A DNA stretch of 64,000 bases, taken from the NCBI RefSeq assembly GCF_019801465.1, contig NZ_JAHVJA010000011.1, positions 1 to 64,000 on the forward strand, in the 5' to 3' direction. Below the pieces are notes generated by a model. That model worked only from the letters and a program-made list of their open reading frames with translations, had not been told where the DNA came from and searched no databases. Position 1 is the stretch's first letter. Each line of letters opens with the position of its first letter. Position numbers and translations under genes: made by a program. This document shows positions 7,730-64,000 of this stretch, piece by piece. Source of the DNA: Leisingera daeponensis. GTDB taxonomy: Bacteria > Pseudomonadota > Alphaproteobacteria > Rhodobacterales > Rhodobacteraceae.

Positions 7730-10629
7730 CCCGCCAGACCCACCGGCTGAATGGCACAGGCCGCCGCCTGGACCGCAGCAAGCCCATCAGCTTCACCTTC
7801 GACGGCAAGCGCTACGGCGGCTTTGAGGGCGACACGCTCGCCTCTGCCCTCTTGGCCAATGGCGTCCGGCTGGTCGCGCGCAGCTTCAAGTACCACCGCC
7901 CGCGCGGCATCTTCACCTGCGACCCGCATGAACCCAGCGCCCTGGTGCAGCTGCGCAGCGGCGCCCGCCAGGAACCCAACATCCCCGCCACCATGGTGGA
8001 GCTCTATGACGGGCTGGAGGCCGCCAGCCAGAACCGCTGGCCATCGCTGCGATACGACCTGTTGTCGGTGAACCAGCTGTTTTCGCCCTTCTTTGCCGCG
8101 GGATTCTACTACAAGACCTTCAAATGGCCCGCAAAATTCTGGACCGGCCTCTATGAGCCGGTAATCCGCCGCGCCGCAGGCATGGGCCGCCTTTCCGGCA
8201 GCATCGACCCCGACACCTATGAGAAGATCCACCACCACTGCGATATCCTGGTGATCGGCGGCGGAGCCGCAGGCATCAGCGCCGCCCGCGCCGCGGCCCA
8301 AAGCGGCGCCCGGGTGACGCTGATAGAGGAACACGCCCGACTCGGCGGTTTCGACGGTACCGGCCTGGAACAGGACATCGCCGAACTGGAGGCGCTGGTA
8401 AACGTCCGCATCATGCCCCGCACCATGGTGTTCGGCTGGTATGACAACAACACCTTCGGCGCGGTTGAGCAGGTCTCCGACCACCTGCCCGTCCCCGCCG
8501 CCCACCAGCCGCGCCAGCGGATTTGGAAGATCGTGGCCCCTCAGGTGATCCTGGCCACCGGCGCCCATGAACGCTCGCTGATCTTTGGCAACAACGACCG
8601 CCCCGGCGTGATGCTGGCGTCCGCCGCCGAACGCTACTTGCGCGACTATGGCGTCCGCCCCGGCAGCCGCGCGGTGATCTTCACCACCAACGACACCACC
8701 GCAGGCCTGGCCAAGGCGCTGGGTGCGGCTGGCGTGACCGTCGCCGCGGTGGCCGATGCCCGCAACGGCGATGAGATCGAAACCGTGCACGGCCGCACTG
8801 CAGTCACGGGTGTCACCCTGCGCCAAAGGGACGGCAGCCGCCGCACCGTGGACTGCGATGCGGTCTGCGTCTCCGGCGGCTGGAACCCGGCGGTGCAGCT
8901 GTTGGCACAGCGCGGCCAGAAACCGCGCTGGAGCGACGGCCTGCAGGCCTTCCTGCCGCAGGAGATGGCGGGTGCGGAGTTCCTGTGCACCGGCAGCCTG
9001 GCCGGGCTGGAGGACCGCGAAGACTGCCAGGCCCACGGCCGCATGGCGGGTGAGGTTGCAGCCCAGCGGTTTGCCGCCCCGGACAGCGCCGATCTGGCAA
9101 GCTACCACAGCTATCTGGAGGCCAATGAGGCGCGCGCCGCCAGCTTCGCCTATTTCGAGACCAGCGCCGGGAAGTCAAAGAAATTCATAGACTTGCAGAA
9201 TGACGTAACAGCAGGAGACGTCTCGCTGGCGACCCGCGAGGGCTATCGCTCAGTCGAGCATGTCAAACGCTATACCACGCTCGGGATGGCCACCGATCAG
9301 GGCAAGACCTCCAACATCCACGGCATCGCCGCCATGTCAAAGGCGCTGGACAAACCGATGGACCAGGTCGGCACCACCGGCTTCCGCCCGCCCTACCGCC
9401 CGGTCAGCCTCGGCGCGCTGGCAGGCCGATCCCGCGGCAAGCACTGGCGCCCGATCCTGCGCACCCCGCTGCATGGCTGGGTCGAGGACAAGGGCGGGGT
9501 GTTCATCGAATCCGGCCTCTGGCACCGCAGCCAGTATTTCCCCAAACCGGGCGAGACCATGAGCCAGGCCATCAGCCGCGAGGTCCAGGCCGTGCGCAGC
9601 GCGGTGGGCTTCTGCGATGTCTCCACCCTGGGCAAGATCGACCTGCAAGGCCCTGATGCTGCGGCATTTCTCGACCGGGTCTACAGCAACGGCTTTGCCA
9701 AGCTGCCGGTAGGCAAGTCCCGCTACGGGCTGATGCTGCGCGAGGACGGTATCGTGATGGACGACGGCACCGTCTCAAGGCTGGCTGAGGATCACTACTT
9801 CATCACCACCACATCGGCAGAATCCGAGAGTGTTATCAGCCACCTGGAATACTGCCACCAGGTGCTGTGGCCAGAGCTGGACGTGGCCTTCGCCGATGCG
9901 GGCGAGGACTGGGCCGGCACCGCCCTGGCCGGTCCCCGCGCCCGCGAGGTGCTGGCCCGGATCGCCCCGGAGCTGGATGTGAGCAACGCCGCCCTGCCCT
10001 TCCTGGCGGCGCGCGAATGCACCATTCTGGACGGGGTGCCCGCGCGGCTGTTCCGGATTTCCTTCTCAGGCGAGCTGGCCTATGAAATCTATGTGCCGTC
10101 CCCCTATGGCCGTCCCCTGGCCGAGGCGCTGGAGCGCGAAGGCGCGGACTTCGGCATCACGCCTTATGGGGTCGAGGCACTGGACGTGCTTCGCATTGAA
10201 AAGGGGCATGTCAGCTCGGAGCTGAACAAGTTCACCACCGCAGCCGACCTGGGCCTTGGCATGATGATGTCCAAGAAAAAAGACTTCATCGGCCGCGCCC
10301 TCAGCAGCCGCCCGGGGCTGACCGACCCCGACCGCGAGGTTGTGGTGGGGCTGAAACCTCTGGACCCTTCGCACAGCTTCCGCCAGGGCGCCCATATCAC
10401 TGCCAGGGGCGCCCCCCTCGCACCGGAGAATGACGACGGCTACATCACCTCTTCCGCCTGGAGCCCGACACTGGAAAGCCATATCGCCATCGCCCTGGTG
10501 CGGCGCGGCCAAGAGCGGCTCGGCGAAGTGGTTGAGATCATCGACCCCCTTCACGGTGAGGACCCCGTCCCGGCCACCATCGTGTCCCATCACTTCTATG
10601 ATCCGGAGAATGCCCGTGTGCGCAGCTGA
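7726..10629 (+). CDS. soxA: Sarcosine oxidase subunit alpha
   Basis: This 967-aa protein has, in order, an N-terminal 2Fe-2S-fold-like domain without the cluster cysteines (residues about 15-100, FTFDGKRYGGFEGDTLASAL), an NAD-binding pyridine-nucleotide oxidoreductase domain (ILVIGGGAAGISAA, about 170-190) and a C-terminal GcvT-like folate domain (about 590-960, including the FSGELAYEIYVP motif). It binds NAD and tetrahydrofolate, forming 5,10-methylene-THF from the sarcosine methyl group. The start was set at the ATG overlapping the soxD stop. Upstream reading in this frame only shadows soxD. Confidence 0.95.
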   Translation: MTRQTHRLNGTGRRLDRSKPISFTFDGKRYGGFEGDTLASALLANGVRLVARSFKYHRPRGIFTCDPHEPSALVQLRSGARQEPNIPATMVELYDGLEAASQNRWPSLRYDLLSVNQLFSPFFAAGFYYKTFKWPAKFWTGLYEPVIRRAAGMGRLSGSIDPDTYEKIHHHCDILVIGGGAAGISAARAAAQSGARVTLIEEHARLGGFDGTGLEQDIAELEALVNVRIMPRTMVFGWYDNNTFGAVEQVSDHLPVPAAHQPRQRIWKIVAPQVILATGAHERSLIFGNNDRPGVMLASAAERYLRDYGVRPGSRAVIFTTNDTTAGLAKALGAAGVTVAAVADARNGDEIETVHGRTAVTGVTLRQRDGSRRTVDCDAVCVSGGWNPAVQLLAQRGQKPRWSDGLQAFLPQEMAGAEFLCTGSLAGLEDREDCQAHGRMAGEVAAQRFAAPDSADLASYHSYLEANEARAASFAYFETSAGKSKKFIDLQNDVTAGDVSLATREGYRSVEHVKRYTTLGMATDQGKTSNIHGIAAMSKALDKPMDQVGTTGFRPPYRPVSLGALAGRSRGKHWRPILRTPLHGWVEDKGGVFIESGLWHRSQYFPKPGETMSQAISREVQAVRSAVGFCDVSTLGKIDLQGPDAAAFLDRVYSNGFAKLPVGKSRYGLMLREDGIVMDDGTVSRLAEDHYFITTTSAESESVISHLEYCHQVLWPELDVAFADAGEDWAGTALAGPRAREVLARIAPELDVSNAALPFLAARECTILDGVPARLFRISFSGELAYEIYVPSPYGRPLAEALEREGADFGITPYGVEALDVLRIEKGHVSSELNKFTTAADLGLGMMMSKKKDFIGRALSSRPGLTDPDREVVVGLKPLDPSHSFRQGAHITARGAPLAPENDDGYITSSAWSPTLESHIAIALVRRGQERLGEVVEIIDPLHGEDPVPATIVSHHFYDPENARVRS

Positions 10630-11260
10630 AGCCCGTTCCCCGTTCTGCCTCGAAGGCCTGGACCTGACCGGCATCCCCGCGGCAGGCCCCGCCGGGGTCG
10701 AGGCCCGGATCGTCACCGGCACCGCCGTGCTGCGGATCATGCCCTTCCACGGCCAGGCAGCCGCCGCCGGCGCCGCGCTGGCGCCATTCGGGTTCACCAC
10801 CCTGCCCGCGATGGGGCGTTTTGCCGAGGAAGGCGAAAACCGCCTGGCCTGGGCGGCCGGCAACTGCTGGCACCTGATCAGTCCCCGCCCTGCCCCGGCG
10901 CTGGAACAGGAGCTGAAACAGGCGCTTGCCGGGCTGGCCGCCGTCAGCAGCGCCGGCGGCGGGTTCCTGCGCCTGCAGATCAGCGGCACCGCCGCCTGCG
11001 CACTGATGGCCAAGGGCTGCGTTCTGGACCTGGACCGGATTGAACCCGGCCGCAGCGCCGTCAGCCTGATGGCGCACACAAAGCTCCACCTGCACCGCCG
11101 CGCGGACATGGGCTTCGATTTGCTGATCCCCGCCAGCCACGCCGCCAGTTTCTGGGAGTGGCTGGCCATGTCCGCCGCCGAATTCGGACTGGCGGTCCAG
11201 ACAACCGCGGCTGCCGCACTGGAAGACAGAGCCCCCGCTCCGGCGGCCCTCTCCGCCTGA
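10610..11260 (+). CDS. soxG: Sarcosine oxidase subunit gamma
   Basis: This is a protein of about 216 aa in the position and size range of SoxG, the smaller, weakly conserved GcvT-like subunit (LQISGTAACALMAKGCVLDLD; FDLLIPASHAASFWEW near the C-terminus). It overlaps the soxA 3' end. The start is uncertain: ATG 10610 is only 1 nt from GGAG, while an in-frame GTG at 10616 has the normal 7-nt spacing, so GTG 10616 may be the true start. It is the last gene of the operon and is followed by a bidirectional terminator. Confidence 0.9.
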   Translation: MPVCAAEARSPFCLEGLDLTGIPAAGPAGVEARIVTGTAVLRIMPFHGQAAAAGAALAPFGFTTLPAMGRFAEEGENRLAWAAGNCWHLISPRPAPALEQELKQALAGLAAVSSAGGGFLRLQISGTAACALMAKGCVLDLDRIEPGRSAVSLMAHTKLHLHRRADMGFDLLIPASHAASFWEWLAMSAAEFGLAVQTTAAAALEDRAPAPAALSA

Positions 11261-52571: not shown

Positions 52572-53462
52572 TCAGGCCGCAGCCGCTGTCAGACCATAGA
52601 AGCTGGCAGCATTGCCGCGGAACACCGCAGCTTGCATCTCTGCGGGAACCAGCCCGCGATAAGCCCCCGCCAGCGTACGGTAGCCCGAATACAGCTTGTC
52701 GACCGGAAAGTTCGACCCGAACATCACCCTGCCGGTGCCGAACTGCTCCAGGCAGGTCTCGACGATGGGGCGGATGCTGTCCGCTGTCCAGTCATGCTCG
52801 AACATGCCCAAACCGGACAGCTTGCAGGTGACATGGGGCAGGCCCGAGAGGTGCTTCAGCTCCTCCGCCCATACAGTCAGCCCGGCGGAAGAGCGGTCAT
52901 GCGGCGACCCTGCGTGGCACAGAGCAACCCTGGTGTCCGGTGCCAGGGCCAGAACCCTCGCGGTCTTTTCCATCAGTTCCGGAACCAGCTGCAGGTCAAA
53001 GCTCAACCCCCGCCGCCCGGCGTCCTGCAGCCCGGCCAGAAACCGCGGGTCATCCAGCAGCGCATTGGTGCCGGTTTGCGCGTCTTCGCCCGGCGCGCGG
53101 CCCACGATCTGGCGCACGCCGCGCACCGTCGGCAGGCTTTGGAACTGGTCGAGCTGCTGCGCCAGATCGGGTGCGGTCAGATCGCAGAACACCACCTGCG
53201 CCATCGGCCAGTCCGGATTGCGCTCCGCCACCGACTGCAGCCAGCGCGCCTCCGCCAGACCGTCCTCCGCCCCTACCTGTATATGCACCGAGGCCGCAAA
53301 GCCTTCGGCTGCGGCCTCGGCGCGGAATTCCTCCAGCAAATAGTCCCGCTGGATCGGGGCCGGATCACCAAAGAACCGCTTCTCGCCTTTCGCCATCAAC
53401 CACGGATACCGCACCGCCCCCAGATCCCACAGGTGATGATGCGCATCGATCCATCCGCTCAT
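52572..53462 (-). CDS. Amidohydrolase-2 family lactonase-type hydrolase
   Basis: This 296-aa TIM-barrel metal-dependent hydrolase has IDAHHHLWDL at the N-terminus, ALCHAGSPHD, and GSNFPVDKLYSGY near the end. It is related to L-fuconolactonase and 2-pyrone-4,6-dicarboxylate lactonase. Start ATG overlaps the stop of the NTF2-like gene (ATGA). It probably opens a lactone in the region J pathway. Confidence 0.88.
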   Translation of the reverse strand: MSGWIDAHHHLWDLGAVRYPWLMAKGEKRFFGDPAPIQRDYLLEEFRAEAAAEGFAASVHIQVGAEDGLAEARWLQSVAERNPDWPMAQVVFCDLTAPDLAQQLDQFQSLPTVRGVRQIVGRAPGEDAQTGTNALLDDPRFLAGLQDAGRRGLSFDLQLVPELMEKTARVLALAPDTRVALCHAGSPHDRSSAGLTVWAEELKHLSGLPHVTCKLSGLGMFEHDWTADSIRPIVETCLEQFGTGRVMFGSNFPVDKLYSGYRTLAGAYRGLVPAEMQAAVFRGNAASFYGLTAAAA

Positions 53463-54463
53463 GAGCGCGGCACCTCTGCCATGCGGGCCAGAATATCGAC
53501 GCCCTGCTGCTTCCAGAAATGCAGAAGGTCGATAAAGATCCAGTTCTCGGCCAGCTTGCCGCCATCCCGGCGGTAGATGTCGATCACCCGGAACTCGCCT
53601 GCCTTTTCCGATGCGGGCATGCCCATGAACCCGCCTGTCGGGCGGGCGGTGAAATTCGGCCAGCCGAAGAAGCCGCCGTAATGTCCCTCGGCCAGGCGGC
53701 AGATGTGCTTGGTCTTGGAACGATCTGTGAAGCCCGCGCGGAACGGCCCCGAGTGCTGCTTGGCATAGCGTCCGATCGTATAGGTGGCGCCGATCCCTGC
53801 CGGACCCCACCAGATCATGTCCTCGGCCCAGGTGCGGCGCAGCTCGTCCTCCAGGCTCAGCCCGCTTTTCCACTGCCCGAGGTCGGAGATCATCGCGTTG
53901 ATCGCAGCCAGGGTCTTTTCGCCCTCGTCCGCAGGCTGCGCATCGAACATCAGCCCGTCATGCGTCATCGGACCCGGCTGCACCAGATGCGCGGCGGTCT
54001 GGGGCGGGAACGGCTGCAAGCCTGCCTGCATCATCAGATGGGGGATGTCGAAGTACATCGCCGTTTCGGTGATCTTGCCGTCTTCGACCTTGTTGAACTC
54101 GCAATACCGCAGGAACGCCATCTTCCCGGTCGGTGCAATTCCCAGCCACGGCGCATCGAACAGCCCCATAAGATGCCCCATCGACACCACCCAGACAGAG
54201 TTAAAGCCGTCCATCTCATTGGCCCCGGCCATGAAAATGTCCTGCCTCCGCTGCATGTGCTTCAGCGCCGCGCGCAAGGGTTTCCAGAACACATCGGCAA
54301 CCGCTTCCGCACCCTGCTGCTCATTGAATGGATGGTAGCCGCGCCAGATATGATTCGAGGTGCAGTACCGTGCAAGCACCTCGCCTGCTTGCCCTGAATC
54401 CGACCTGTCGAGATCGGCGTAAAGGTTTCGGACCATTTGCTTTTCCACTGAAAAGTCAGGCAT
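53459..54463 (-). CDS. Tandem NTF2/SnoaL-like protein A
   Basis: This 334-aa protein has two NTF2-fold (SnoaL-like) halves. The first is at about residues 10-150 (HIWRGYHPFNEQQG...LFDAPWLGIAPTGKMAFLRYCEFNKVEDGKI). The second is at about 195-330 (WWGPAGIGATYTIGRY...GGFFGWPNFTARPTGGFMGMP...DGGKLAENWIFIDLLHFW). The fold includes cyclases, hydratases and isomerases; the substrate is unknown. It is divergent from the ABC operon, and its start codon lies 14 nt from a LacI-type operator. The start was set at ATG 54463, with AGGAG 10 nt upstream. Confidence 0.83.
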   Translation of the reverse strand: MPDFSVEKQMVRNLYADLDRSDSGQAGEVLARYCTSNHIWRGYHPFNEQQGAEAVADVFWKPLRAALKHMQRRQDIFMAGANEMDGFNSVWVVSMGHLMGLFDAPWLGIAPTGKMAFLRYCEFNKVEDGKITETAMYFDIPHLMMQAGLQPFPPQTAAHLVQPGPMTHDGLMFDAQPADEGEKTLAAINAMISDLGQWKSGLSLEDELRRTWAEDMIWWGPAGIGATYTIGRYAKQHSGPFRAGFTDRSKTKHICRLAEGHYGGFFGWPNFTARPTGGFMGMPASEKAGEFRVIDIYRRDGGKLAENWIFIDLLHFWKQQGVDILARMAEVPRS

Positions 54464-54476
54464 GGGAAGTTGCTCC

Positions 54477-54492
54477 TTGCATACGTCTGCAA
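54477..54492. promoter_or_regulatory. LacI-type operator 1
   Basis: TTGCATACGTCTGCAA: 16-bp palindrome TTGCA-N6-TGCAA with a central CG step, typical of LacI-family sites, next to the NTF2 gene A start. Confidence 0.8.
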
Positions 54493-54531
54493 AAAAGTCT
54501 TGCCAAAAAGTCACCTATAAGTCTACCCTCC

Positions 54532-54547
54532 TTGCAATCGTATGCAA
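54532..54547. promoter_or_regulatory. LacI-type operator 2
   Basis: TTGCAATCGTATGCAA, the same 16-bp form, 55 bp from operator 1 and 31 nt before the ABC ATPase start. One LacI tetramer could bind both and control the two divergent transcripts. Confidence 0.8.
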
Positions 54548-54578
54548 AATGCCCAGCCAAAGCTGTCAGGGGGAATAC

Positions 54579-55631
54579 ATGGCCGAGATACGACTACAGA
54601 ATGTTGGCAAGCGCTGGGGGTCATTCGTCGGCGTCGACAACTTTGACCTGACCATCGCCGACAAGGAGTTTCTGGTGCTGCTGGGGCCGTCGGGCTGCGG
54701 CAAGACAACCACCATGCGGATGATCGCCGGGCTGGAAGAGGCCACCGAGGGCGACATCCTGATCGACGGCCAGCGCGTCAACGACATGGAGCCCAAGGAC
54801 CGCGACGTGGCGATGGTGTTCCAGTCCTACGCGCTCTACCCCAACATGAACGTCTACGAGAACATCCGCTTTCCGCTGAAGGTGCGCGGCATCGACCCCA
54901 AGACTCATGACGAGAAAGTCCGCCGCGCCTCGGCGATGGTGGAACTGGACGACTTCCTGCACCGCAAGCCCGCGGAACTGTCCGGCGGCCAGCGCCAGCG
55001 CGTCGCCCTGGCCCGCGCCATCGTGCGCGAACCCAATGTCTTCCTGATGGACGAGCCGCTGTCGAACCTGGACGCCAAGCTGCGCGTTTCCACCCGCGCG
55101 CAGATCAAGAACCTCAGCCACGAGCTGGCGGTGACCACAATCTACGTGACCCATGACCAGATCGAGGCAATGACTCTGGCCGACCGCGTCGTGGTGATGA
55201 AAAAGGGCGTGGTGCAGCAGGTCGGCTCCCCGACCGAAATCTATGACAGCCCCGCCAACACCTTTGTCGCCAGCTTCATCGGAAACCCGGCGATGAACCT
55301 GATGGACGGACAGGTTCAGGGCGGCACCTTCCGCGCCAAGAATGTGGAAATCTCAGGGCTGAACGCGCCGGACGGCCCGCTCACGCTGGGTTTCCGGGCC
55401 GAGGACGCCAGCATCGCGGCACCCGGTGAGGGCCAGATCAACGCGCCGATCTACACGATGGAACTGCTGGGTGACGCAACGATGATCTCGGTGCGCGTCG
55501 GCGGGGCTCTCGTCTCGGTAAAGGCCGACAAGACCTTCCGGGCCGAAATCGGCCAGACGGTGTCGATCGCCGTACCGCAGGGCATTTGCCACCTGTTTGA
55601 CGGTCAAACCGGCGCGCGGATCGGGGGCTGA
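54579..55631 (+). CDS. ABC importer ATP-binding protein, UgpC/MsmK-like
   Basis: This 350-aa ATPase has Walker A (GPSGCGKTT, residues about 36-44), an intact LSGGQRQRVALARA signature, Walker B (VFLMDEPLSNLDAKLR) and a C-terminal TOBE/MalK-type regulatory domain. It energises the carbohydrate-type (CUT1) importer encoded by the next three genes. Start ATG after AGGGGGA. Confidence 0.95.
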   Translation: MAEIRLQNVGKRWGSFVGVDNFDLTIADKEFLVLLGPSGCGKTTTMRMIAGLEEATEGDILIDGQRVNDMEPKDRDVAMVFQSYALYPNMNVYENIRFPLKVRGIDPKTHDEKVRRASAMVELDDFLHRKPAELSGGQRQRVALARAIVREPNVFLMDEPLSNLDAKLRVSTRAQIKNLSHELAVTTIYVTHDQIEAMTLADRVVVMKKGVVQQVGSPTEIYDSPANTFVASFIGNPAMNLMDGQVQGGTFRAKNVEISGLNAPDGPLTLGFRAEDASIAAPGEGQINAPIYTMELLGDATMISVRVGGALVSVKADKTFRAEIGQTVSIAVPQGICHLFDGQTGARIGG

Positions 55632-55719
55632 ACGCCCCCTGCCGGCGCTACCGCCACTGCGGTCCACAGGACGGGCGCAAACCGCCTGCCTCAAATCCAG
55701 AAAAAACAGGGAGAATGAC

Positions 55720-56964
55720 ATGTTACTGAAAAGACTTGCTGCCGCATCGCTGTTTGCCGGGCTGATGGGCTCGGCGGCTTTTGCGGCCAACTGCGGCCCC
55801 GAGGGCCAGTCGATCCGCATTCTGGCGAGCGACTTCCCGGCAATCCACGCGGTGGTCGATGCGGCCCGGGCCAACTGCGGGGATGCCGCGGCGGAATTCA
55901 CCGCCAACCACACCACCGAGGCGCGCCAGATCATGAACGCGGCGCTGACGCCGAACCCCGCGGAATACACCTCGGTGATCCTCGCCAATGCCACGCTGAC
56001 CCAGCTGATGAACGACGGGCTGGTGCGGCCGCTGAACGACCTGGTGGAAAAATACAAGGACAGCATCCCGCCGAATGTTCTGATCACCATCGACGGCAAC
56101 GTGATGGCGGTTGCCTTCATGGCCAACTCGCAGCACCTGTTCTCGCGCAAGGACATCCTGGAGCAGGCCGGTGTCGACAGCATACCCGCATCCTATGAGG
56201 AGGTGCTGGAAGCGGCAGAGAAGATCCGCGCCGCGGGCATCATGGAACATCCCATCGCGATGAACCTGCAGACCGGCTGGAACGTGGGCGAAGTCTTCAA
56301 CATGATCTACCTCGGCCACGGCGGCGAGTTCTTCGCACCCGGCTCTGCCGAACCCTCGATCAACAATGAGCAAGGCATCGCCGCGCTGGAAACCATGAAG
56401 GCTCTGGCCGAATACGCCCACCCGGACCACCTGACCCATGCCTCCAACGAGACCCAGGGCCTGTGGGAATCCGGCCAGGCGGCGCTGGCCATCATGTGGG
56501 GCTCGCGCGGCGCGCCGATCCTGGATGACGAAGGCTCCACCGAGGAAGTGACCTCTAACACCGTCCTGTCCGCGGCCCCCACCGTCGGCGGCGGCTCGAT
56601 CCCGGCAGCCACCCTGTGGTGGGATGGCATCTCCATTGCCTCCAATGTCTCCGATGAAGAAGCCGAGGCAACCTTCGCCGCGCTGATCAGCGGCCTGACC
56701 CCCGAAATGGTGGCGGAGAACAACGACGACGCGGTCTGGCTTCTGCCCGGTTTCGAGCCTGGCCCGGCAGCGGCGGGCGTGGCCGGAACCGTGCAAGGCG
56801 GGGCCCGTCCCTACCCGATGATCCCGCAGATCGGCCTGCTGCACGCAGCGCTCGGCTCGGAACTGACCGACTTCCTGAAAGGCGGCGAAAGCGCCGAGCA
56901 GGCGCTGGCCGATGTCGAGACCGCTTACCGGACCTCGGCCAAGGAAGCCGGCTTCCTCAAGTAA
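55720..56964 (+). CDS. ABC importer solute-binding protein
   Basis: This 414-aa periplasmic binding protein has a signal peptide (MLLKRLAAASLFAGLMGSAA, cleavage near AFA-AN) and a family 1 solute-binding fold (SYEEVLEAAEKIRAAGI, GLWESGQAALAIMWGSRG). The family takes sugars, polyols and other small polar solutes; the ligand here is unknown. AGGGAG precedes the ATG. Confidence 0.93.
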   Translation: MLLKRLAAASLFAGLMGSAAFAANCGPEGQSIRILASDFPAIHAVVDAARANCGDAAAEFTANHTTEARQIMNAALTPNPAEYTSVILANATLTQLMNDGLVRPLNDLVEKYKDSIPPNVLITIDGNVMAVAFMANSQHLFSRKDILEQAGVDSIPASYEEVLEAAEKIRAAGIMEHPIAMNLQTGWNVGEVFNMIYLGHGGEFFAPGSAEPSINNEQGIAALETMKALAEYAHPDHLTHASNETQGLWESGQAALAIMWGSRGAPILDDEGSTEEVTSNTVLSAAPTVGGGSIPAATLWWDGISIASNVSDEEAEATFAALISGLTPEMVAENNDDAVWLLPGFEPGPAAAGVAGTVQGGARPYPMIPQIGLLHAALGSELTDFLKGGESAEQALADVETAYRTSAKEAGFLK

Positions 56965-56977
56965 ACCTCCCCGACTG

Positions 56978-57005
56978 GAGGGGGCTGCAGGCCCCCTCTC
57001 TTTTC
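56978..57005 (+). terminator. Intra-operon stem-loop after the binding-protein gene
   Basis: GAGGGGGC / GCCCCCTC stem with a 5-nt loop followed by TCTTTTCCC, 14 nt after the binding-protein stop and before the permease genes. Such hairpins often give partial termination or protect the upstream mRNA, raising binding protein over permease. Confidence 0.7.
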
Positions 57006-57031
57006 CCGGACAGAAGACTGAGACGCACGCC

Positions 57032-58063
57032 ATGAAGCACCGCACCTTTTTCTGGTTCATCCTGCCGACGCTATCCGCGATGATCCTCTTCATCGCGCTG
57101 CCCATCGTCTCGGTTTTCATCCAGTCGCTGTTTGTCGAGCACGAGCAGGTTCTGGTGGTCTCCGAGAGCTGCGGCCCGTTCGGCTGCACGCCCACGACCA
57201 CGGTCGACACCGCGGCCACAGCCGCACTGCAGGAAGAGCAGCCGCTGGGCCGGTTCAATGGGCTGAACACCTACATCAACCGCTCGCACCTGGCCTTCGC
57301 CGAGGTCGGCGAGGCCTGGCGCAACACGGAAACCTTCGGCGCGTTCTGGAAGCAGATCATCAACCTGCCCTTCTACCGCGCGCTGATCTTCACGCTGACT
57401 TACACGGCGGTTGTCACTCCGGTCGTTATCGCCCTTGGCCTGGCAATTGCAGTGGGCGTCAACAACCTGCCCCGCTTCCTCAAGGGTCCGTCGATCTTCA
57501 TCTCGCTGCTGCCGTTCCTTGTAACGCCTCTGGTCGGCTCGCTGATCCTGTTCTGGATGGTCGACAGCGACGGCGTCATCGGCGCCACCATCCAGCGGAT
57601 TTTCAACGATCCCTCGCTCAGCCTCAAGGCCTCCACTGCGCTGACCTGGACCATGCTGATCGTCTATGGCGTCTGGCACACCCTGCCGTTCAGCTTCATC
57701 ACCTTCTACGCAGGCCTCCAGACCGTGCCCGAGGACACCATGGAAGCGGCGATGATCGACGGCGCGTCGAAGTGGCAGCGCATGATCCACGTGATCGTGC
57801 CGCATCTGGCGCCGCTGATGTCCTTCGTGACGCTGATGCTCTTGATGGACAACTTCCGCGTCTTCGAGCCGATCGTCAGCTTCAAGGCCGAGGCCCACGC
57901 CACCTCGCTCAGCTGGATCATCTACAACGACCTGCGCGAAAGCGGCAATCCGCTCTACGGCTCGGCCGGGGCGACCTCGATGATGACCATCATCGGCGTT
58001 GTCATCCTGCTGACCCCGGTGCTGATCCGCACCTGGCGCGACTTCTCCCGCAAAGCACACTGA
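57032..58063 (+). CDS. ABC importer permease 1
   Basis: This 343-aa inner-membrane permease of the MalF type has first segment FFWFILPTLSAMILFIALPIV, an unusually long periplasmic insert (about residues 35-95, containing SCGPFGCTPTTTVDTAAT) and the EAA loop EAAMIDGASKWQRMIHVIVPH. Start ATG was placed after the hairpin; the frame upstream belongs to the binding-protein gene region. Confidence 0.92.
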   Translation: MKHRTFFWFILPTLSAMILFIALPIVSVFIQSLFVEHEQVLVVSESCGPFGCTPTTTVDTAATAALQEEQPLGRFNGLNTYINRSHLAFAEVGEAWRNTETFGAFWKQIINLPFYRALIFTLTYTAVVTPVVIALGLAIAVGVNNLPRFLKGPSIFISLLPFLVTPLVGSLILFWMVDSDGVIGATIQRIFNDPSLSLKASTALTWTMLIVYGVWHTLPFSFITFYAGLQTVPEDTMEAAMIDGASKWQRMIHVIVPHLAPLMSFVTLMLLMDNFRVFEPIVSFKAEAHATSLSWIIYNDLRESGNPLYGSAGATSMMTIIGVVILLTPVLIRTWRDFSRKAH

Positions 58064-58073
58064 GGGCACGATC

Positions 58074-58994
58074 ATGGCAACCAAGGCACAATCCCGCATC
58101 GCAGCCCCGGCAGTGAGCACGAAGTCCCGGACCCGCATCCAGCCGCTCACCGTGATCTCTCTGGCGCTCGTCGCGCTCTGGCTGATCATCGCTGCTTTCC
58201 CCTTCTTCTGGACCTTCTGGGGCAGCTTCAAGGTGCAGTCGGATTTCTTCTCCAAGACCGACTGGCAGAACGCCATCTACGGGGTCAACACGATCCGGCA
58301 GACCGGCAGCCCCTTCACCCTCGAAGGATATCACGGCGCCTGGGTGGACGAGGAATTCTGGCGCAATGTCATCAACTCCGGCATCGTGGTGTTCTTCACC
58401 GTGGTAATCTCGCTCACCTTCGGCACGCTTGGCGGCTACGCGCTCGCCCGTTCGGGGCGCCGCTATGCCTTCTGGCTGCTGATGGCCGCGCTGGTGTTCC
58501 GCGCCATGCCGCACATTACCCTTGTCTCGGGCTACCTGCTGCCGTTCTTCGAGTGGAACATCTGGGGCATCCTGCCGACCACCATCATCGTGCTGGTGGC
58601 GATCAACCAGCCTTTTACCCTGTGGATGCTGCACTCCTTCTTCCTCAACATCCCCAAGGACATGGACGAAAGCGCCATGGTCGACGGCTGCACCCGCTTC
58701 CAGGCCTTCCGCCACGTCATCATCCCGGTCATGTGGCCTGGCGTGATCACCACCGGCCTGTTCAGCTTCCTGCTGGCCTACAACGACTTCGCGGTGACCG
58801 CGATGCTGCTCAGCTCCGAGAATGAGACCATCATCCCCGCGATCAACAGCTTCCTCGGCACCACCCAGGTCGAAGGCAAGGTGATGTACGCCGTCGCCGC
58901 CGTGGTCTCCGCCACCGCCCCGCTGTTCGTGCTGATCCTGTTCTTCCAGCGCCAGATCGTCAGCGGACTGACCGCCGGCGCGGTGAAAGGGTGA
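58074..58994 (+). CDS. ABC importer permease 2
   Basis: This 306-aa MalG-type permease has six membrane segments, opening with VISLALVALWLIIAAFPFFW, and the EAA loop ESAMVDGCTRFQAFRHVIIP. It pairs with permease 1, 10 nt upstream. Confidence 0.93.
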   Translation: MATKAQSRIAAPAVSTKSRTRIQPLTVISLALVALWLIIAAFPFFWTFWGSFKVQSDFFSKTDWQNAIYGVNTIRQTGSPFTLEGYHGAWVDEEFWRNVINSGIVVFFTVVISLTFGTLGGYALARSGRRYAFWLLMAALVFRAMPHITLVSGYLLPFFEWNIWGILPTTIIVLVAINQPFTLWMLHSFFLNIPKDMDESAMVDGCTRFQAFRHVIIPVMWPGVITTGLFSFLLAYNDFAVTAMLLSSENETIIPAINSFLGTTQVEGKVMYAVAAVVSATAPLFVLILFFQRQIVSGLTAGAVKG

Positions 58995-59130
58995 TGAGCA
59001 GCGCCGCAAGACATAACGCCGTTGCGCGCCACCCGGCGCTCAACCGGATGCCAAGGGATTTTCTGACGGACGGCCGTCTCCTCCCCGTCTGATCACATCA
59101 TCCCTTGGCAACAAATTGAAGGAACAGAGC

Positions 59131-59661
59131 ATGAAAGGCTCCCGCCCCGAACAAGCCGTGCTGACCAAAGACACGGACCTGAGCAAGACCGAAGACACCC
59201 GCCGCGTGATCGAAAACATGGTGGACGGGCTGAACGACCACCGCATCAGCGACATCGGCGAATTCTTCTCCGAAGGCTTCCGCTGGATGGGCAACCAGGG
59301 CTGCGGCACCAAGACCGGCCTGCAGGAGTTCCAGGACAACTGGCAGCGCCCGTTCCAGGCCGCCTTCTCCGACAAGGTCTGCATCGACGAGGCCCGTCTC
59401 TACATGGGCGAATGGGCCGCCGCCTTCGGCCGCCAGGAGGCCACCCACAGCGGCACCTTCCTCGGCATCGAACCCACCGGCAAGCGTGTCGAGATCCGTT
59501 ACATGGACTTCTGGAAAGTCGTCGACGGCAAGATCGCCGACAACTGGGTGAACGTCGATTTTGCCCATGTCGCCGCCCAGCTCGGCGTTGATCTGTTCAA
59601 CGGCGAAGGCTGGGAAGCATTTGACCGCGGAGAGAAAACCCCTCCGCGCCCCGACAATTGA
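59131..59661 (+). CDS. NTF2/SnoaL-like protein B
   Basis: This 176-aa single NTF2-fold protein carries the cluster-specific pattern: [54 protein letters not shown] and LGVDLFN. The same blocks recur in proteins A and C. GAAGGA lies before the ATG; a TTG 15 nt upstream is less likely. It may be a cyclase, isomerase or hydrolase acting on the imported compound. Confidence 0.83.
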
Positions 59662-59671
59662 GGACCTGACC

Positions 59672-60985
59672 ATGACCATCGAATACCTGAAACGCGGCAA
59701 GCCCGAGGCCGACCGCGCCGAAGACGACGCCAAGACCCGCGCCGTGGTCGAAGCCACGCTGAAGGACATTGAAGCCCGCGGCGACGCCGCCGTGCGCGAG
59801 CTGAGCGAGAAATTCGACGACTACAGCCCCGAAAGCTTCCGCCTCAGCCAGCAGGAAATCGACGCGCTGATCGCCTCGCTGAGCGACCGCGAGCTGGAGG
59901 ACATCAAATTCGCGCAAAAGCAGGTGATGAATTTCGCCCAGGCGCAGCGCGACTCGATGCTGGACATCGAGGTGGAAACCCTGCCCGGCGTGATCCTCGG
60001 CCATAAGAACATCCCCGTGCAGTCGGTCGGCTGCTATGTGCCGGGCGGCAAATTTCCGATGGTTGCCTCGGCCCATATGTCGGTCGCCACCGCCAAGGTG
60101 GCAGGCGTGCCGCGCATCATCGCCTGCACCCCGCCGTTCCAGGGCAAGCCGAACGCGGCGGTGATTGCCGCGATGCACCTGGGCGGCGCCCATGAGATCT
60201 ACGTGATGGGCGGCATTCAGGCGGTCGGTGCCATGGCCATCGGCACCGAAACCATCGACCCCGTTCACATGCTGATCGGCCCCGGCAACGCCTTTGTCGC
60301 CGAAGCCAAACGCCAGCTGTTTGGCCGCGTCGGCATCGACCTGTTTGCAGGCCCGACCGAAACCATGGTGATCGCGGACGAGACCGCCGCCGATGCCGAG
60401 CTTTGCGCCACCGATCTGCTGGGCCAGGCCGAACACGGCTACAACTCTCCCTGCGTACTGCTGACCAACTCGCGCAAGCTGGCCGAGGAGACGCTGAGCG
60501 AGATCGACCGCCTGCTGGGCATCCTGCCGACCGCGGACACCGCCAAAGTCAGTTGGGAGGAATACGGCGAGGTGATCGTCTGCGACACCTACGACGAGAT
60601 GCTGCAGGTCGCCGATGACATCGCCTCCGAGCACGTGCAGGTGATGACCGACCGCGACGACTGGTTCCTGGAAAACATGACCTGCTACGGCGCGCTGTTC
60701 CTCGGGCCCCGCACCAATGTCTCCAACGGCGACAAGGTAATCGGCACCAACCACACCCTGCCGACCAAGAAGGCGGGCCGCTACACCGGCGGGCTTTGGG
60801 TGGGCAAGTTCCTGAAAACCCACAGCTATCAGAAAGTCACCACCGACGAGGCGGCGACCATGATCGGCGAGTACGGCTCTCGGCTCTGCATGCTCGAAGG
60901 CTTCGTCGGCCACGCCGAGCAGTGCAACATCCGCGTCCGCCGCTACGGCGGCAAGAACGTGCCTTACGGGACTGCAGCAGAATGA
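59672..60985 (+). CDS. HisD-family dehydrogenase, HpsN-like
   Basis: This 437-aa protein is of the histidinol dehydrogenase superfamily. Zinc ligands Gln252, His255, Asp354 and His414 and catalytic Glu320-His321 are kept ([29 protein letters not shown]). It is not a biosynthetic HisD: it sits in a catabolic ABC operon and resembles HpsN, the sulfopropanediol 3-dehydrogenase of roseobacters. The hps TRAP transporter genes are absent here, so another 1,2-diol or polyol may be the substrate (inference). It overlaps the next gene by 4 nt (ATGA). Confidence 0.87.
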
Positions 60986-62037
60986 CCACCGATACTCACA
61001 CCCGGAACAAGGCGCTGATCGCCCCGATGCGGGACGCGATGCGCGACTTCACCGAAAAAGGCGTGCGCGCCGCTCTGGAGGAGCTGATCGCGCCGGACGC
61101 GGTGGTGCATATGTGCCATCCCTTCGGCGACCTGACCGGGCCCGCGGAGCTCTATGACACCTGCTATGCGCCGCTGCTGAAGTCCATGCCGGACCTCGAG
61201 CGCCGCGACTGGATCGTCATGGGCGGGCGCACCGAGCACGGCGGCGACTGGATCGGCTGCGGCGGCCACTACTACGGCACTTTCGTGCGGCCCTGGCTGG
61301 ACATCCCTCCAACCGGCCATCTGACCCACATGCGCTACCACGAGTTCTACCGCCTCAAAGAAGGCCGCGTGGTGGAGATCCAGACCATCTGGGATATTCC
61401 CGAGGTGATGATGCAGGCAAAGGCCTGGCCGATGGCGCCCTCGCTCGGCCTCGAGTTCTGCATCCCTGGCCCGGCAACGCACGACGGCATTGTCCCAGGC
61501 CCCTGGGACGAGGACAAGTCGCAGACCTCCTGCAGCCGCATCGTCGACATGCTGGCCCACTTGAAGAAGCACCCGAGCCAGGGCGGCCCGGAAGTGATGG
61601 AGATGCCGAAATTCTGGCATGAGCGGATGAACTGGTACGGCCCTGCCGGCATCGGCACCGGCCGCGGCATCGCAGGCTTCCGCAACTGGCACCAGATCCC
61701 GTTCCTGAACGGCATGCCCGACCGCGGCCAGTACCTGGACGAGATCACCTATCACTTCTTCGGCGACGGCGAATACGCCGCGGTGACCGGCTGGCCCAAC
61801 ATGATCCAGACAGTCACCCACGACGGCTGGATGGGCATCGCCCCCTCGGGCCAGCGCATCACCATGCGCTCCTTGGATTTCTGGCGGCTGGAGAACGGCA
61901 AGATCCGCGAAAACTGGGTCACGGTGGACATTCTGGACGCCTACCGTCAGTTGGGCGTAGATGTCTTTGCCCGCCTGCGCGAGTTCAACAAGGCCCGCGT
62001 GGCTGGCGAAATCCCCTTCCCTGTCAGCGAGGTTTGA
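60982..62037 (+). CDS. Tandem NTF2/SnoaL-like protein C
   Basis: This 351-aa protein is made of two NTF2-fold halves. The first is at about residues 10-150 ([32 protein letters not shown]). The second is at about 205-345 ([19 protein letters not shown]...[21 protein letters not shown]...[21 protein letters not shown]...[10 protein letters not shown]). It is a paralogue of protein A at the other end of the locus. The start ATG overlaps the dehydrogenase stop, showing tight coupling. Confidence 0.84.
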
Positions 62038-62038
62038 C

Positions 62039-62806
62039 ATGCCCACCTTCCCCAGCACCCCCAGTTTCAGCCTAAAGGGCAAGCGCGCCCTGGTTGCCGG
62101 CGCATCTTCCGGCATCGGAACGGCCTGCGCCGTGGCCTTGGCGGAACAGGGTGCTGAGGTCACTCTTGCAGCGCGCCGCACTGACGCGCTGCAGGACATC
62201 GCCGCGGAAATGACCGCCCGCGACTGGGTGGCGAAGGTGCTTCAACTGGATGTGGGCGACGTCGCCGCCACGGCAGAGGCGGTGGCGGCCAACGGGCCTT
62301 TCGACATCCTGGTGAACTCCGCCGGAACCGCCCGGCACGGCAAGGCGGTGGAGACCGCGCCGGAGGACTTCGACGCGGTAATGGATGTGAACGTCCGCGG
62401 CGCCTATTTCCTGACCCAGGCGGTGGCCAAGGGCCTGCTCGCGGCCGGCCGCCCAGGCTCGCTGATCAATATCTCCAGCCAGATGGGCCATGTCGGCGGC
62501 CGCGAGCGCGCGGTCTACTGCGCGTCGAAATTCGCGGTCGAGGGCTTCACCAAGGCGATGGCGCTGGAATTCGGCCCGCACAAGATCCGCGTCAACACGG
62601 TTTGCCCGACTTTCATCCTCACCGATCTGACCCGTCCGACGTTTGAAGACCCGGAAAAACGGGCCTGGGTGCTGGACAAGATCAAGCTCGGCCGCCCGGG
62701 CGAGGTCGAGGACATCATGGGGGCGGTGGCTTACCTCGCGTCCGACGCCGCTTCGCTGGTGACCGGCACCGCGCTGATGGTTGACGGCGGCTGGACGGCA
62801 GACTGA
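62039..62806 (+). CDS. Short-chain dehydrogenase/reductase
   Basis: This 255-aa classical SDR has the cofactor loop AGASSGIG, NSAG near residue 98, catalytic Ser in INISSQMG and Tyr/Lys in YCASK, and VDGGWTAD at the C-terminus. It probably oxidises or reduces an intermediate of the region J pathway. It starts right after protein C, and its stop overlaps the lacI start (TGATG). Confidence 0.94.
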   Translation: MPTFPSTPSFSLKGKRALVAGASSGIGTACAVALAEQGAEVTLAARRTDALQDIAAEMTARDWVAKVLQLDVGDVAATAEAVAANGPFDILVNSAGTARHGKAVETAPEDFDAVMDVNVRGAYFLTQAVAKGLLAAGRPGSLINISSQMGHVGGRERAVYCASKFAVEGFTKAMALEFGPHKIRVNTVCPTFILTDLTRPTFEDPEKRAWVLDKIKLGRPGEVEDIMGAVAYLASDAASLVTGTALMVDGGWTAD

Positions 62807-63825
62807 TGGCTACAAGTAAAGTCACATCCATGGACGTTGCCCGCCTCGCGGGTGTCAGCCAGTCCGCGGTCAGCCGGGTGTTCACCCCCGGCGCCTCGGC
62901 ATCGAAAAAGACCATCGAAAAGGTCCGCAAGGCGGCCGAGGAACTCGGCTACCGCCCCAACGTGCTGGCCCGCGCGATGGTCTCCGGCAAAAGCGGCATC
63001 ATCGGGCTGGTGGTCGCCTATCTGAACAACCAGTTCTACCCGGAGGCGCTGGAGAAGCTCACCAACGCGCTGCAGGAGCGCGGCTATCACGTGCTGGTCT
63101 TCCTGGCCTCCCATTCGGCCGGCAACATCGACCGCGTCGTCGAGGAGATCCTGGACTTCCAGGTCGACGGTATCATCGCCGCCTCGGTTGCGCTCTCTTC
63201 TGACCTCTCCGCCCGCTGCCAGGCGGCCGGCGTGCCCATGGTGCTGTTCAACCGGGCGCAGGATGATCCGTCGATGTCAGCCGTAACCTCCGACAACATC
63301 ACAGGCGGGCGCAAGGCAGCCGAATTCCTACTAGCCGGAGGCCACAAGAAAATCGGCTATATCGCGGGCTGGGAAGGCGCCTCCACCCAGCGCGACCGCG
63401 AGGCGGGCTTCCGTGCCGGGCTGGAAGCGGGCGGCGCCACGCTGCATGCCCGCGAGGTCGGCAATTTCGTCACCGAACAGACCCAGGAAGCCACCCGCCG
63501 CATGTTCGCAAGCGACCCGCCGGATGCGGTTTTTGTGGCCAATGATCACATGGCCATCGCGGTAATGGACACGCTGCGCTTTGAACTGGGCCTCAGCGTG
63601 CCGGGCGATGTCTCGGTGGTGGGCTACGACGATGTATCCGTTGCCGCCTGGCCCACCTACAGCCTTACCACCGTGCGCCAGCCCGCCAACCGCATGGTGG
63701 CCGAAACCGTCGACATCATCCTGGCCAAGATCGAGGACGCCGACGTGCGCCCGCGCCGGGTCGAGATCGACGGGCCACTCATTGTTCGCGGCTCCGCCCG
63801 CATACCTGAAGGATGGAAGACATGA
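62806..63825 (+). CDS. LacI-family transcriptional regulator
   Basis: This 339-aa protein has a LacI helix-turn-helix (SMDVARLAGVSQSAVSRVF) and hinge (NVLARAMVSGKSGIIGLVV), then a sugar-binding-protein-like effector domain. It is encoded inside the operon it most likely controls, through the two TTGCA-N6-TGCAA operators at 54.5 kb. It overlaps both neighbours. Confidence 0.95.
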   Translation: MATSKVTSMDVARLAGVSQSAVSRVFTPGASASKKTIEKVRKAAEELGYRPNVLARAMVSGKSGIIGLVVAYLNNQFYPEALEKLTNALQERGYHVLVFLASHSAGNIDRVVEEILDFQVDGIIAASVALSSDLSARCQAAGVPMVLFNRAQDDPSMSAVTSDNITGGRKAAEFLLAGGHKKIGYIAGWEGASTQRDREAGFRAGLEAGGATLHAREVGNFVTEQTQEATRRMFASDPPDAVFVANDHMAIAVMDTLRFELGLSVPGDVSVVGYDDVSVAAWPTYSLTTVRQPANRMVAETVDIILAKIEDADVRPRRVEIDGPLIVRGSARIPEGWKT

Positions 63826-64000
63826 AGGGATTTGACCCCAAGTTCAAAGATTTCCCCGATTACATCATTGGCATCACCAAGGAGATCTGGGAAGACCGCG
63901 GCATCGCCACGCTGCATGACTACTACGCGCCCGATATCGTCGTGCGCTCGCCCGCCTCGGTGGTGACCGGCAACGAGGGCGTGATCGCCGCGACCATGGC
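63822..64000 (+). CDS. NTF2/SnoaL-like protein D, partial
   Basis: ATG 63822 overlaps the lacI stop (ATGA) and opens a frame to the right edge (MKGFDPKFKDFPDYIIGITK, then EDRGIATLHDYYAPDIVVRSPASVVTGNEGVIAATM). This is the N-terminal part of another SnoaL-like fold protein. Its length and the further operon lie outside the window. Confidence 0.78.
   Translation, partial: MKGFDPKFKDFPDYIIGITKEIWEDRGIATLHDYYAPDIVVRSPASVVTGNEGVIAATM

Follow-up and report, generated by a model that had tools for sequence, protein, structure and literature searches.

A conserved, putatively LacI-regulated island with four NTF2-fold genes in Leisingera daeponensis and its possible role in the catabolism of mycosporine-like amino acids

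The stretch of DNA analysed here (the window) comprises 64,000 nucleotides of Leisingera daeponensis, positions 1 to 64,000 of contig NZ_JAHVJA010000011.1 (assembly GCF_019801465.1, a genome of 4.89 Mb in which we denote this contig C11; L, G, C and f numbers are our handles for loci, genomes, contigs and families). Its last part, 52572-64000, is a divergent locus of transport and enzyme genes that includes four genes of the NTF2/SnoaL fold, and the island extends past the end of the window to 67478 on the same contig. The ATG starts and coordinates of its genes were rechecked and confirmed. On the minus strand lie a COG3618-like amidohydrolase (52572..53462; PF04909, 120.1 bits; best PDB match 4dlf, 'Amidohydrolase 2', E 3.4e-19) and NTF2A (53459..54463; PF07366), a tandem SnoaL/NTF2 protein that we predict to remove Ser or Thr substituents. 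The plus strand encodes an ABC importer, made up of an ATPase of the UgpC/MalK type (54579..55631; NF008653, UgpC subfamily, 448.7 bits against a cut-off of 432), a solute-binding protein (SBP, 55720..56964; SBP_bac_1, Pfam 69.6 bits) and two permeases (57032..58063 and 58074..58994; both PF00528). These are followed, on the same strand, by the single-domain protein NTF2B (59131..59661; PF07366, 73 bits; PDB 1sjw, SnoaL, E 1.6e-10), a HisD-family dehydrogenase (59672..60985) with a predicted CH2OH to COOH oxidation, the tandem protein NTF2C (60982..62037; PF07366), a short-chain dehydrogenase/reductase (SDR, 62039..62806; PF13561, 204.9 bits), a LacI-family regulator (62806..63825; PF00356 and PF13377) and the tandem protein NTF2D (63813..64796; PF07366), whose part beyond the window end at 64000 was taken from the same contig.

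A preliminary description of the window had claimed an importer, a HisD-type dehydrogenase, an SDR, a LacI regulator, an amidohydrolase and four NTF2 genes for this locus, and all are found there. It had counted two of the NTF2 genes as tandem, giving at least six domains; three are tandem (A, C and D), and the locus therefore encodes seven NTF2 domains. The gene set is also larger than first described. Beyond the window, the same contig carries a bicupin (64953-65912), an alpha/beta hydrolase (66091-66786) and an RraA-like aldolase (66783-67478; PF03737, 58.3 bits), and many relatives of the locus add a gene for a MetE-like zinc methyltransferase.

A search of the whole genome for SnoaL domains (PF07366, E 0.01) returned 11, seven of them inside this locus; given this share, the concentration of NTF2 domains is not due to chance. 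A search with PF13577 gave nothing. Homology links NTF2B and the C-terminal halves of NTF2A and NTF2C with one another (E 4e-14 to 3e-25), and the two N-terminal halves of NTF2A and NTF2C with each other (E 3e-24); NTF2D is more distant. The sequence blocks that had been described as common to these proteins are indeed present: WWGPAGIG in NTF2A, the variant WYGPAGIG, and the C-terminal block. In part these blocks belong to the ordinary signature of the family, the C-terminal one aligning with solved SnoaL-like proteins as well. Acidic positions are kept in both halves of NTF2C (E132 and D138; D299, E310 and D316). In NTF2B, the only one of the four aligned to SnoaL itself, the position of the SnoaL catalytic aspartate, which we take to be Asp121, is occupied by Val, and a later Asp aligns with D124.

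From an NTF2C-based scan of genomes the best 80 of 379 relatives were kept, so that NTF2C is present in all 80 by construction. Gene counts cover the 60 loci that reach 20 kb (20 of the 80 are shorter), at identity thresholds of 60% for the ATPase, 45% for SDR and LacI, 40% for the hydrolase and 30% for the others, with coverage of at least 40%; genes of the relatives were called with our own open reading frame and composition filter, and many were named by eye. The HisD protein occurs in 45 of the 60 long loci. Forty-four of these 45 have NTF2A, NTF2D and the cupin, all three together; SBP and each permease are likewise found in 44, the ATPase in 43, LacI in 42, NTF2B and SDR in 41, the RraA-like protein in 36, the hydrolase in 35, the MetE-like protein in 33 and the amidohydrolase in 21. 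They carry four NTF2 genes in 36 cases, five in eight and one in a single case, and gene order is conserved. NTF2C is also present in a smaller, importer-plus-NTF2 version of the locus: the 15 long loci without HisD include 14 with SBP and permeases, nine with a LysR gene and nine with NTF2D, and have one or two NTF2 genes (12 loci) or four (three loci). Co-occurrence of these genes in Rhodobacteraceae, which the preliminary description had named as a check, is borne out, with importer, NTF2 and HisD genes conserved in linkage. With seven of the 11 SnoaL domains local and this linkage kept in relatives, the NTF2 genes are not scattered paralogues.

Relatives of NTF2C were found in 118 of 295 sampled genomes of the family (E 1e-20), in 91 of 196 genomes of the order and in 22 of 398 genomes drawn from the phylum (both E 1e-25), six of the 22 lying outside the family; all counts include the genome itself and paralogues such as NTF2A. 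The locus has relatives in other alphaproteobacteria, Vibrio, Halomonas, family f40 (same phylum, other class) and a haloarchaeon, with many enzymes retained: HisD, SDR, NTF2, LacI, cupin, MetE-like protein, hydrolase and an aldolase of the RraA or HpcH/HpaI type recur in varying subsets across lineages. A plasmid of Halobellus limi (L124:9972-17319) has four long and one short NTF2 gene in a row, together with an ABC importer, an MBL-fold hydrolase and a MetE-like gene. This pattern probably reflects horizontal spread of a catabolic module. That the locus is a dedicated catabolic cluster is well supported, and there is a strong case for a real, conserved catabolic island for which we found no publication in the open-licence PubMed Central (PMC) literature.

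The importer is an exchangeable part of this island. In Ruegeria loci such as L101, SBP and the first permease are 41-44% identical to those of the window, versus 91-92% for HisD and NTF2B. Among the Vibrio-type loci (family f53), L171-L173 encode ABC importers, and L135 and L174-L176 encode SSS symporters, in most cases alongside TRAP genes; the loci of f40 and of other alphaproteobacteria have TonB receptors and/or SSS symporters. The NTF2 set had been described as grouped around one transporter; the linkage stands, but the transporter is swapped between lineages and is not the centre of the system.

The palindrome TTGCATnCGnATGCAA occurs twice in the gap between NTF2A and the ATPase gene (54477 and 54532), and these are its sole exact copies in the window. 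The two putative LacI operators, TTGCATACGTCTGCAA (54477..54492) and TTGCAATCGTATGCAA (54532..54547), are assigned to neither strand and both contain the exact 12-base core. Among the corresponding gaps of relatives (n=47), 45 contain an exact core site and the other two a site with one mismatch. The 80 loci together (1,513,621 bases) have 74 exact core matches, 70 of which lie in this gap. Loci L132-L200 (889,888 bases) contain 21, 25 and 64 sites at 0, 1 and 2 mismatches, compared with 0, 0 and 23 in one mononucleotide shuffle. The same operator is found in Rhodobacteraceae-type, Halomonas, TRAP-type Vibrio and several alphaproteobacterial TonB-type loci; in the last three groups exact or near sites stand upstream of HisD. 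Two exact, conserved copies in the divergent gap lend support to the earlier suggestion that the locus is controlled by LacI.

HisD-family enzymes carry out two successive oxidations, from a primary alcohol to an acid, as established for histidinol. The cluster protein passes the HisD family model (TIGR00069, 425.3 bits against a curated cut-off of 243.8) and retains the E-H and Q..H motifs that we take, from Escherichia coli HisD, to be the catalytic signatures. Import followed by two oxidations and lactone opening had been proposed for the locus. That the amidohydrolase opens a lactone is unproven, because this accessory gene occurs in a minority of relatives (21 of the 45 HisD-bearing long loci); the protein scores 125.9 bits against the L-fuconolactonase equivalog NF052480, far below its cut-off of 400. 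The cupin found no clear relative in a PDB sequence search. In the MetE-like protein, H242, C244, E276 and C342 are invariant in 13 of 13 sequences, the archaeal one included; going by E. coli MetE, these are presumably the zinc ligands. The gene is whole in the Leisingera loci L043 and L044. The RraA-like protein has R128 and D129 invariant in 13 of 13 sequences, which we take to be the R-D motif of the RraA family, and is distantly related to the 4-carboxy-4-hydroxy-2-oxoadipate (CHA) aldolase 3noj (E 2e-5). In several lineages it is replaced by an HpcH/HpaI aldolase, nearest to GarL (139 bits, cut-off 406.75), and this replacement points to a pyruvate-forming aldol cleavage.

NTF2 genes adjoin genes for threonine dehydrogenase (tdh) and Kbl, or for L-serine ammonia-lyase (sdaA), in about five lineages. 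Counting once the seven genomes that occur with the same coordinates in both tdh searches, tdh lies beside the cluster in five of ~72 distinct tdh-bearing genomes (three Halomonas, G1257 and G239, the last from a later, unbiased search). All three Halomonas genomes have tdh-kbl beside the cluster and a single tdh match each; one copy has an in-frame stop. For sdaA the figure is at least seven of 64 sdaA-bearing genomes (G1185, where it is the only sdaA match, and six of Vibrio type), a lower bound because the position of NTF2A is not always known in the Vibrio-type genomes. Distances to tdh and sdaA were judged by eye from coordinates, and rough arithmetic puts chance adjacency at about one genome per gene. 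On plasmids, sdaA also accompanies NTF2 genes in V. europaeus and V. pelagius WXL662. In Vibrio mini-loci a relative of NTF2A adjoins transporters and L-serine ammonia-lyase: G360 has NTF2A with an MFS transporter, a porin and LacI, adjoining an SSS symporter and SdaA, and in G390 the NTF2A-sdaA distance is the same by coordinates; neither genome gave a HisD match at E 1e-120. The region of an extra sdaA copy held NTF2A in three of three further Vibrio-type genomes, of which G1045 was chosen because HisD was already known to be near, and G1049 and G1004 on the guess that an extra sdaA copy marks NTF2A; in G1045 the mini-locus adjoins the full module. The mini-locus set suits serine stripping and no more. 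In L180, the stretch from NTF2C to sdaA contains one imperfect operator site with two mismatches, which may act on NTF2C alone. Overall, the link of Ser/Thr genes to the cluster is suggestive.

Mycosporine-like amino acids (MAAs) have a cyclohexenimine ring with an O-methyl group and with a hydroxyl and CH2OH at C5; C3 bears glycine, and C1 in many cases Ser or Thr. The enzymes of the island would match such a compound, that is, a ring bearing CH2OH on a tertiary carbinol together with an O-methyl group. Our best single guess, which we put somewhat short of even and which is read from the gene content, is that the island is a LacI-regulated and probably horizontally spread system that imports and mineralizes MAAs. 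According to PMC6165330, glycine is common at C3 and the second group or amino acid at C1 is variable. Such variation would explain several paralogous NTF2 hydrolases. Vibrio harveyi was suggested to strip Ser or Thr from shinorine and porphyra-334, giving mycosporine-glycine (Dunlap and Shick, cited in PMC3083659, the accessible text of which names no gene there). The Vibrio mini-locus of NTF2A and sdaA resembles that suggested activity, and we count this in favour of MAAs.

With the gene content, the linkage, an operator shared by several lineages, exchangeable importers and recurrent Ser/Thr genes as observations, we infer the substrate and propose the following steps. The MAA would be taken up via the ABC importer or, in other lineages, via TRAP or via TonB and a sodium symporter. 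NTF2A would then hydrolyse the C1 imine to release Ser or Thr and mycosporine-glycine, the free amino acid passing to SdaA or Tdh-Kbl where these are linked, and a further NTF2 protein (C, D or B) would release glycine to leave 4-deoxygadusol. HisD, with or without the SDR, could oxidize the C5 CH2OH to COOH. Loss of the C5 hydroxyl through an NTF2 dehydratase may follow and would aromatize the ring to 4-O-methylgallate; alternatively, the ring may remain alicyclic. Demethylation would fall to the MetE-like zinc enzyme (whose gene is lost here in this strain) and ring opening to the bicupin with the hydrolase or amidohydrolase, before an aldolase of the RraA or HpcH type cleaves a 4-hydroxy-2-oxo acid, for example CHA, to give pyruvate and oxaloacetate. 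Going by the structures of these compounds, CH2OH oxidation, demethylation and ring opening of 4-deoxygadusol would yield CHA, the substrate of CHA aldolase, with seven carbons and none left over. The NTF2 fold includes a known dehydratase, scytalone dehydratase. The preliminary description had seen the NTF2 proteins as isomerases, hydratases or cyclases; we keep the idea of specialized enzymes and, in place of generic isomerization, propose amino-acid removal (imine or enamine hydrolysis) and dehydration as their main chemistry.

The wider claim would be that the island provides the first genes for MAA catabolism in bacteria, that its tandem NTF2 proteins represent a novel class of imine/enamine hydrolases and dehydratases which remove Ser, Thr and Gly from the ring, that the core is converted into pyruvate and oxaloacetate, and that the module is widespread in the Roseobacter group and, through horizontal transfer, also present in Vibrio, Halomonas, other proteobacteria and haloarchaea. 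We regard this as a shade less likely than the choice of substrate. No MAA catabolic genes, and no pathway of this composition, were found in the open-licence PMC literature, as judged by titles and the opening of abstracts, in agreement with the earlier statement that no named pathway has this composition.

Several observations weigh against MAAs as the substrate or against parts of the scheme. The loss of SnoaL Asp121 in NTF2B means that the SnoaL aldol mechanism is not to be assumed, and the chemistry is unreadable from known relatives. The PDB proteins that SBP resembles, if weakly, bind oligosaccharides and polyols. Neither the amidohydrolase nor the MetE-like protein is universal among the HisD-bearing long loci, and the strain of the window has lost its MetE-like gene at this locus, the part of the genome examined for it: the gap between cupin and hydrolase is 178 bases here versus 1210 in L043 (Leisingera aquaemixtae), and of the remnant, a 5' part, about the first 68 bases are recognizable (contig ~65999-66066, L001 ~1999-2066). 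The second cupin motif, which we believe normally has a histidine, is without it, and R118 there is invariant; a dioxygenase activity is therefore doubtful. No operator site with one mismatch or fewer was seen in L132 and L157-L160 (f40) or in the ABC-type Vibrio loci L171 and L173, and the operator is therefore not universal; the regions upstream of tdh-kbl in L194, L195, L196 and L197 contain no LacI operator, which speaks against a shared LacI regulon there. The Ser/Thr link amounts to about five lineage-level events (Halomonas, G1257, G239, the Vibrio mini-locus and G1185), and in 33 genomes of the family of the window, 32 of them with sdaA, this gene never lies beside the cluster and tdh does so once (G239). 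The link was noticed first and tested later, so it is partly post hoc, and the genomes are related. Finally, the sdaA of V. pelagius WXL662 sits in a sarcosine-oxidase operon, hinting at N-methyl glycine instead, and the other strain of V. pelagius lacks it in its gene table.

Other explanations place the same genes in different settings. The nearest PDB match of the HisD protein is a sulfopropanediol (DHPS) 3-dehydrogenase (384.7 bits), as would fit a variant pathway for DHPS or a related C3 sulfonate in which an HpsN-type dehydrogenase is central. However, in a tree of HisD-like paralogues, into which no experimentally proven HpsN sequence was entered, the cluster HisDs split with a local support of 0.997 from their paralogues in this genome (45-46%) and in Vibrio-type genomes. 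The genome has three other HisD-family genes, of which the 38% one (C8) is an outlier that we take for the biosynthetic HisD. The Vibrio-type paralogue L207 sits with TRAP and, by eye, sulfolactate-lyase-like genes, in what looks like a sulfolactate or DHPS locus; no sulfonate lyase, sulfolactate or cysteate gene was seen in the gene lists of the cluster, where names were partly given by eye. On these two grounds the DHPS route, a match to which would have refuted the preliminary description, was rejected, and we regard a variant of it as very unlikely. Biosynthesis, with SnoaL proteins cyclizing a polyketide-like product beside an incidental importer, would fit the match to PF07366 ('SnoaL-like polyketide cyclase') and the 'ester cyclase' annotations. 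It is extremely improbable: no polyketide synthase gene was seen in the loci, nor among the families common to at least five of them, and it was rejected on this context. Moreover, importers travel with the enzymes, operators precede transporter and enzyme genes, an aldolase and amino-acid catabolism genes are present, and Asp121 of SnoaL is not kept in NTF2B.

Two catabolic alternatives carry more weight. Oxidation of a sugar acid, polyol or O-methyl sugar is close to the view of the preliminary description; HisD and SDR would oxidize, the amidohydrolase or hydrolase open lactones, NTF2 proteins act as isomerases or dehydratases, and pyruvate come from the RraA or HpcH aldolase. In favour are an importer of the sugar type whose SBP resembles sugar binders, the HpcH protein with GarL as its nearest relative, the COG3618-like amidohydrolase and a regulator of the LacI family. 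But no kinase, glycosidase or sugar dehydratase was recognized among the 19 families found in at least five loci, the amidohydrolase, SDR and HpcH protein all miss the cut-offs of sugar-pathway equivalogs, and the MetE-like protein, SdaA and Tdh-Kbl are left unexplained; we consider this reading rather unlikely. It is still less likely that the island serves another small polar solute that yields hydroxy-amino acids or glycine plus a methyl group, such as an N-methylated or betaine-type osmolyte or an amino-acid conjugate, with NTF2 proteins as hydrolases or lyases. V. pelagius does have soxBDAG-purU (in one strain also sdaA) downstream of NTF2 genes, a GcvT-like aminomethyltransferase lies near the five NTF2 genes of Halobellus, and DMGDH-like or DmdA genes neighbour several Roseobacter loci. 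Sarcosine-type genes are not among the widely shared families, save for a DMGDH-like family in 6 loci, and the importer ATPase is of the sugar and not the betaine type. To our knowledge HisD, aldolase and cupin do not constitute a betaine gene set, which we also count against an osmolyte. Homarine was considered in view of the marine setting, and no homarine gene set was found in the open-licence PMC literature.

Some neighbouring features deserve mention in their own right. Directly beyond the island, contig positions 67920-77323 (L001:3920-13323) encode, by names given by eye, a BCCT transporter, an aldehyde dehydrogenase, a Rieske oxygenase, an RpiR regulator and a DMGDH/GcvT-like oxidoreductase; this cluster is apparently separate from the island and resembles a betaine catabolic locus of the carnitine or stachydrine type. 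A second kind of HisD-like gene occurs with a D-cysteine-desulfhydrase-like (CuyA-like) gene, a racemase, a pyridoxal phosphate enzyme and sometimes TRAP genes (L205, G000:C15:45000-60000; L208; L177; by eye), possibly a cysteinolate-type sulfonate route. Several Rhodobacteraceae-type versions of the locus have an inserted GMC (choline-dehydrogenase-like) oxidoreductase (L137:8357-9868, L144:9576-11096, L083, L060 and L105; confirmed for L144). In two classes, TonB-type clusters are joined by a HAD hydrolase and by a small protein that matches no Pfam family (L158:8649-9068 and 10534-11226, L160 and L182:6183-7410). Sulfatase-like genes lie near NTF2 loci of different hosts (L136:5418-6953, L200:17927-19429, L183:16171-18396 and L159:17406-18950; L183 matches PF00884, the others were named by eye). 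Sulfated MAAs are tabulated in the review PMC3083659.

This is a conserved island, with NTF2C relatives (paralogues included) in 118 of the 295 genomes sampled from the family, whose solute is not named in the literature that we found. Should the solute be MAAs, the island would provide breakdown genes for UV-absorbing compounds of algae, corals and cyanobacteria, explain the old Vibrio observation and give the NTF2 fold a further enzyme class. Should it be a different solute, experiments could still build on the core, which is conserved, on the mini-locus and on the operator motif.

The system can be compared with four known ones. With DHPS catabolism of the HpsN type it shares a HisD-family oxidation of a primary alcohol within a marine uptake cluster; unlike that pathway, it has its own HisD clade, a sugar-type importer, four NTF2 genes, a cupin and, in relatives, a MetE-like protein, with no sulfonate genes seen. 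The SnoaL/AknH-type NTF2 cyclases (PF07366) are alike in fold family and C-terminal motif, whereas here the domains are duplicated in tandem, the setting is catabolic and SnoaL Asp121 is replaced in NTF2B. The lower pathway of protocatechuate and gallate meta-cleavage consists of LigI, LigJ and LigK. No LigAB-type dioxygenase was seen here and the similarity is only distant, but both systems have an amidohydrolase-superfamily enzyme and an RraA-type aldolase, and possibly the same last intermediate. The suggested removal of Ser and Thr from shinorine and porphyra-334 is, in the accessible text of PMC3083659, an activity without a named gene, and its link to the cluster is one that we infer; it is nevertheless the predicted first step here, and the Vibrio mini-locus combines NTF2A with L-serine ammonia-lyase.

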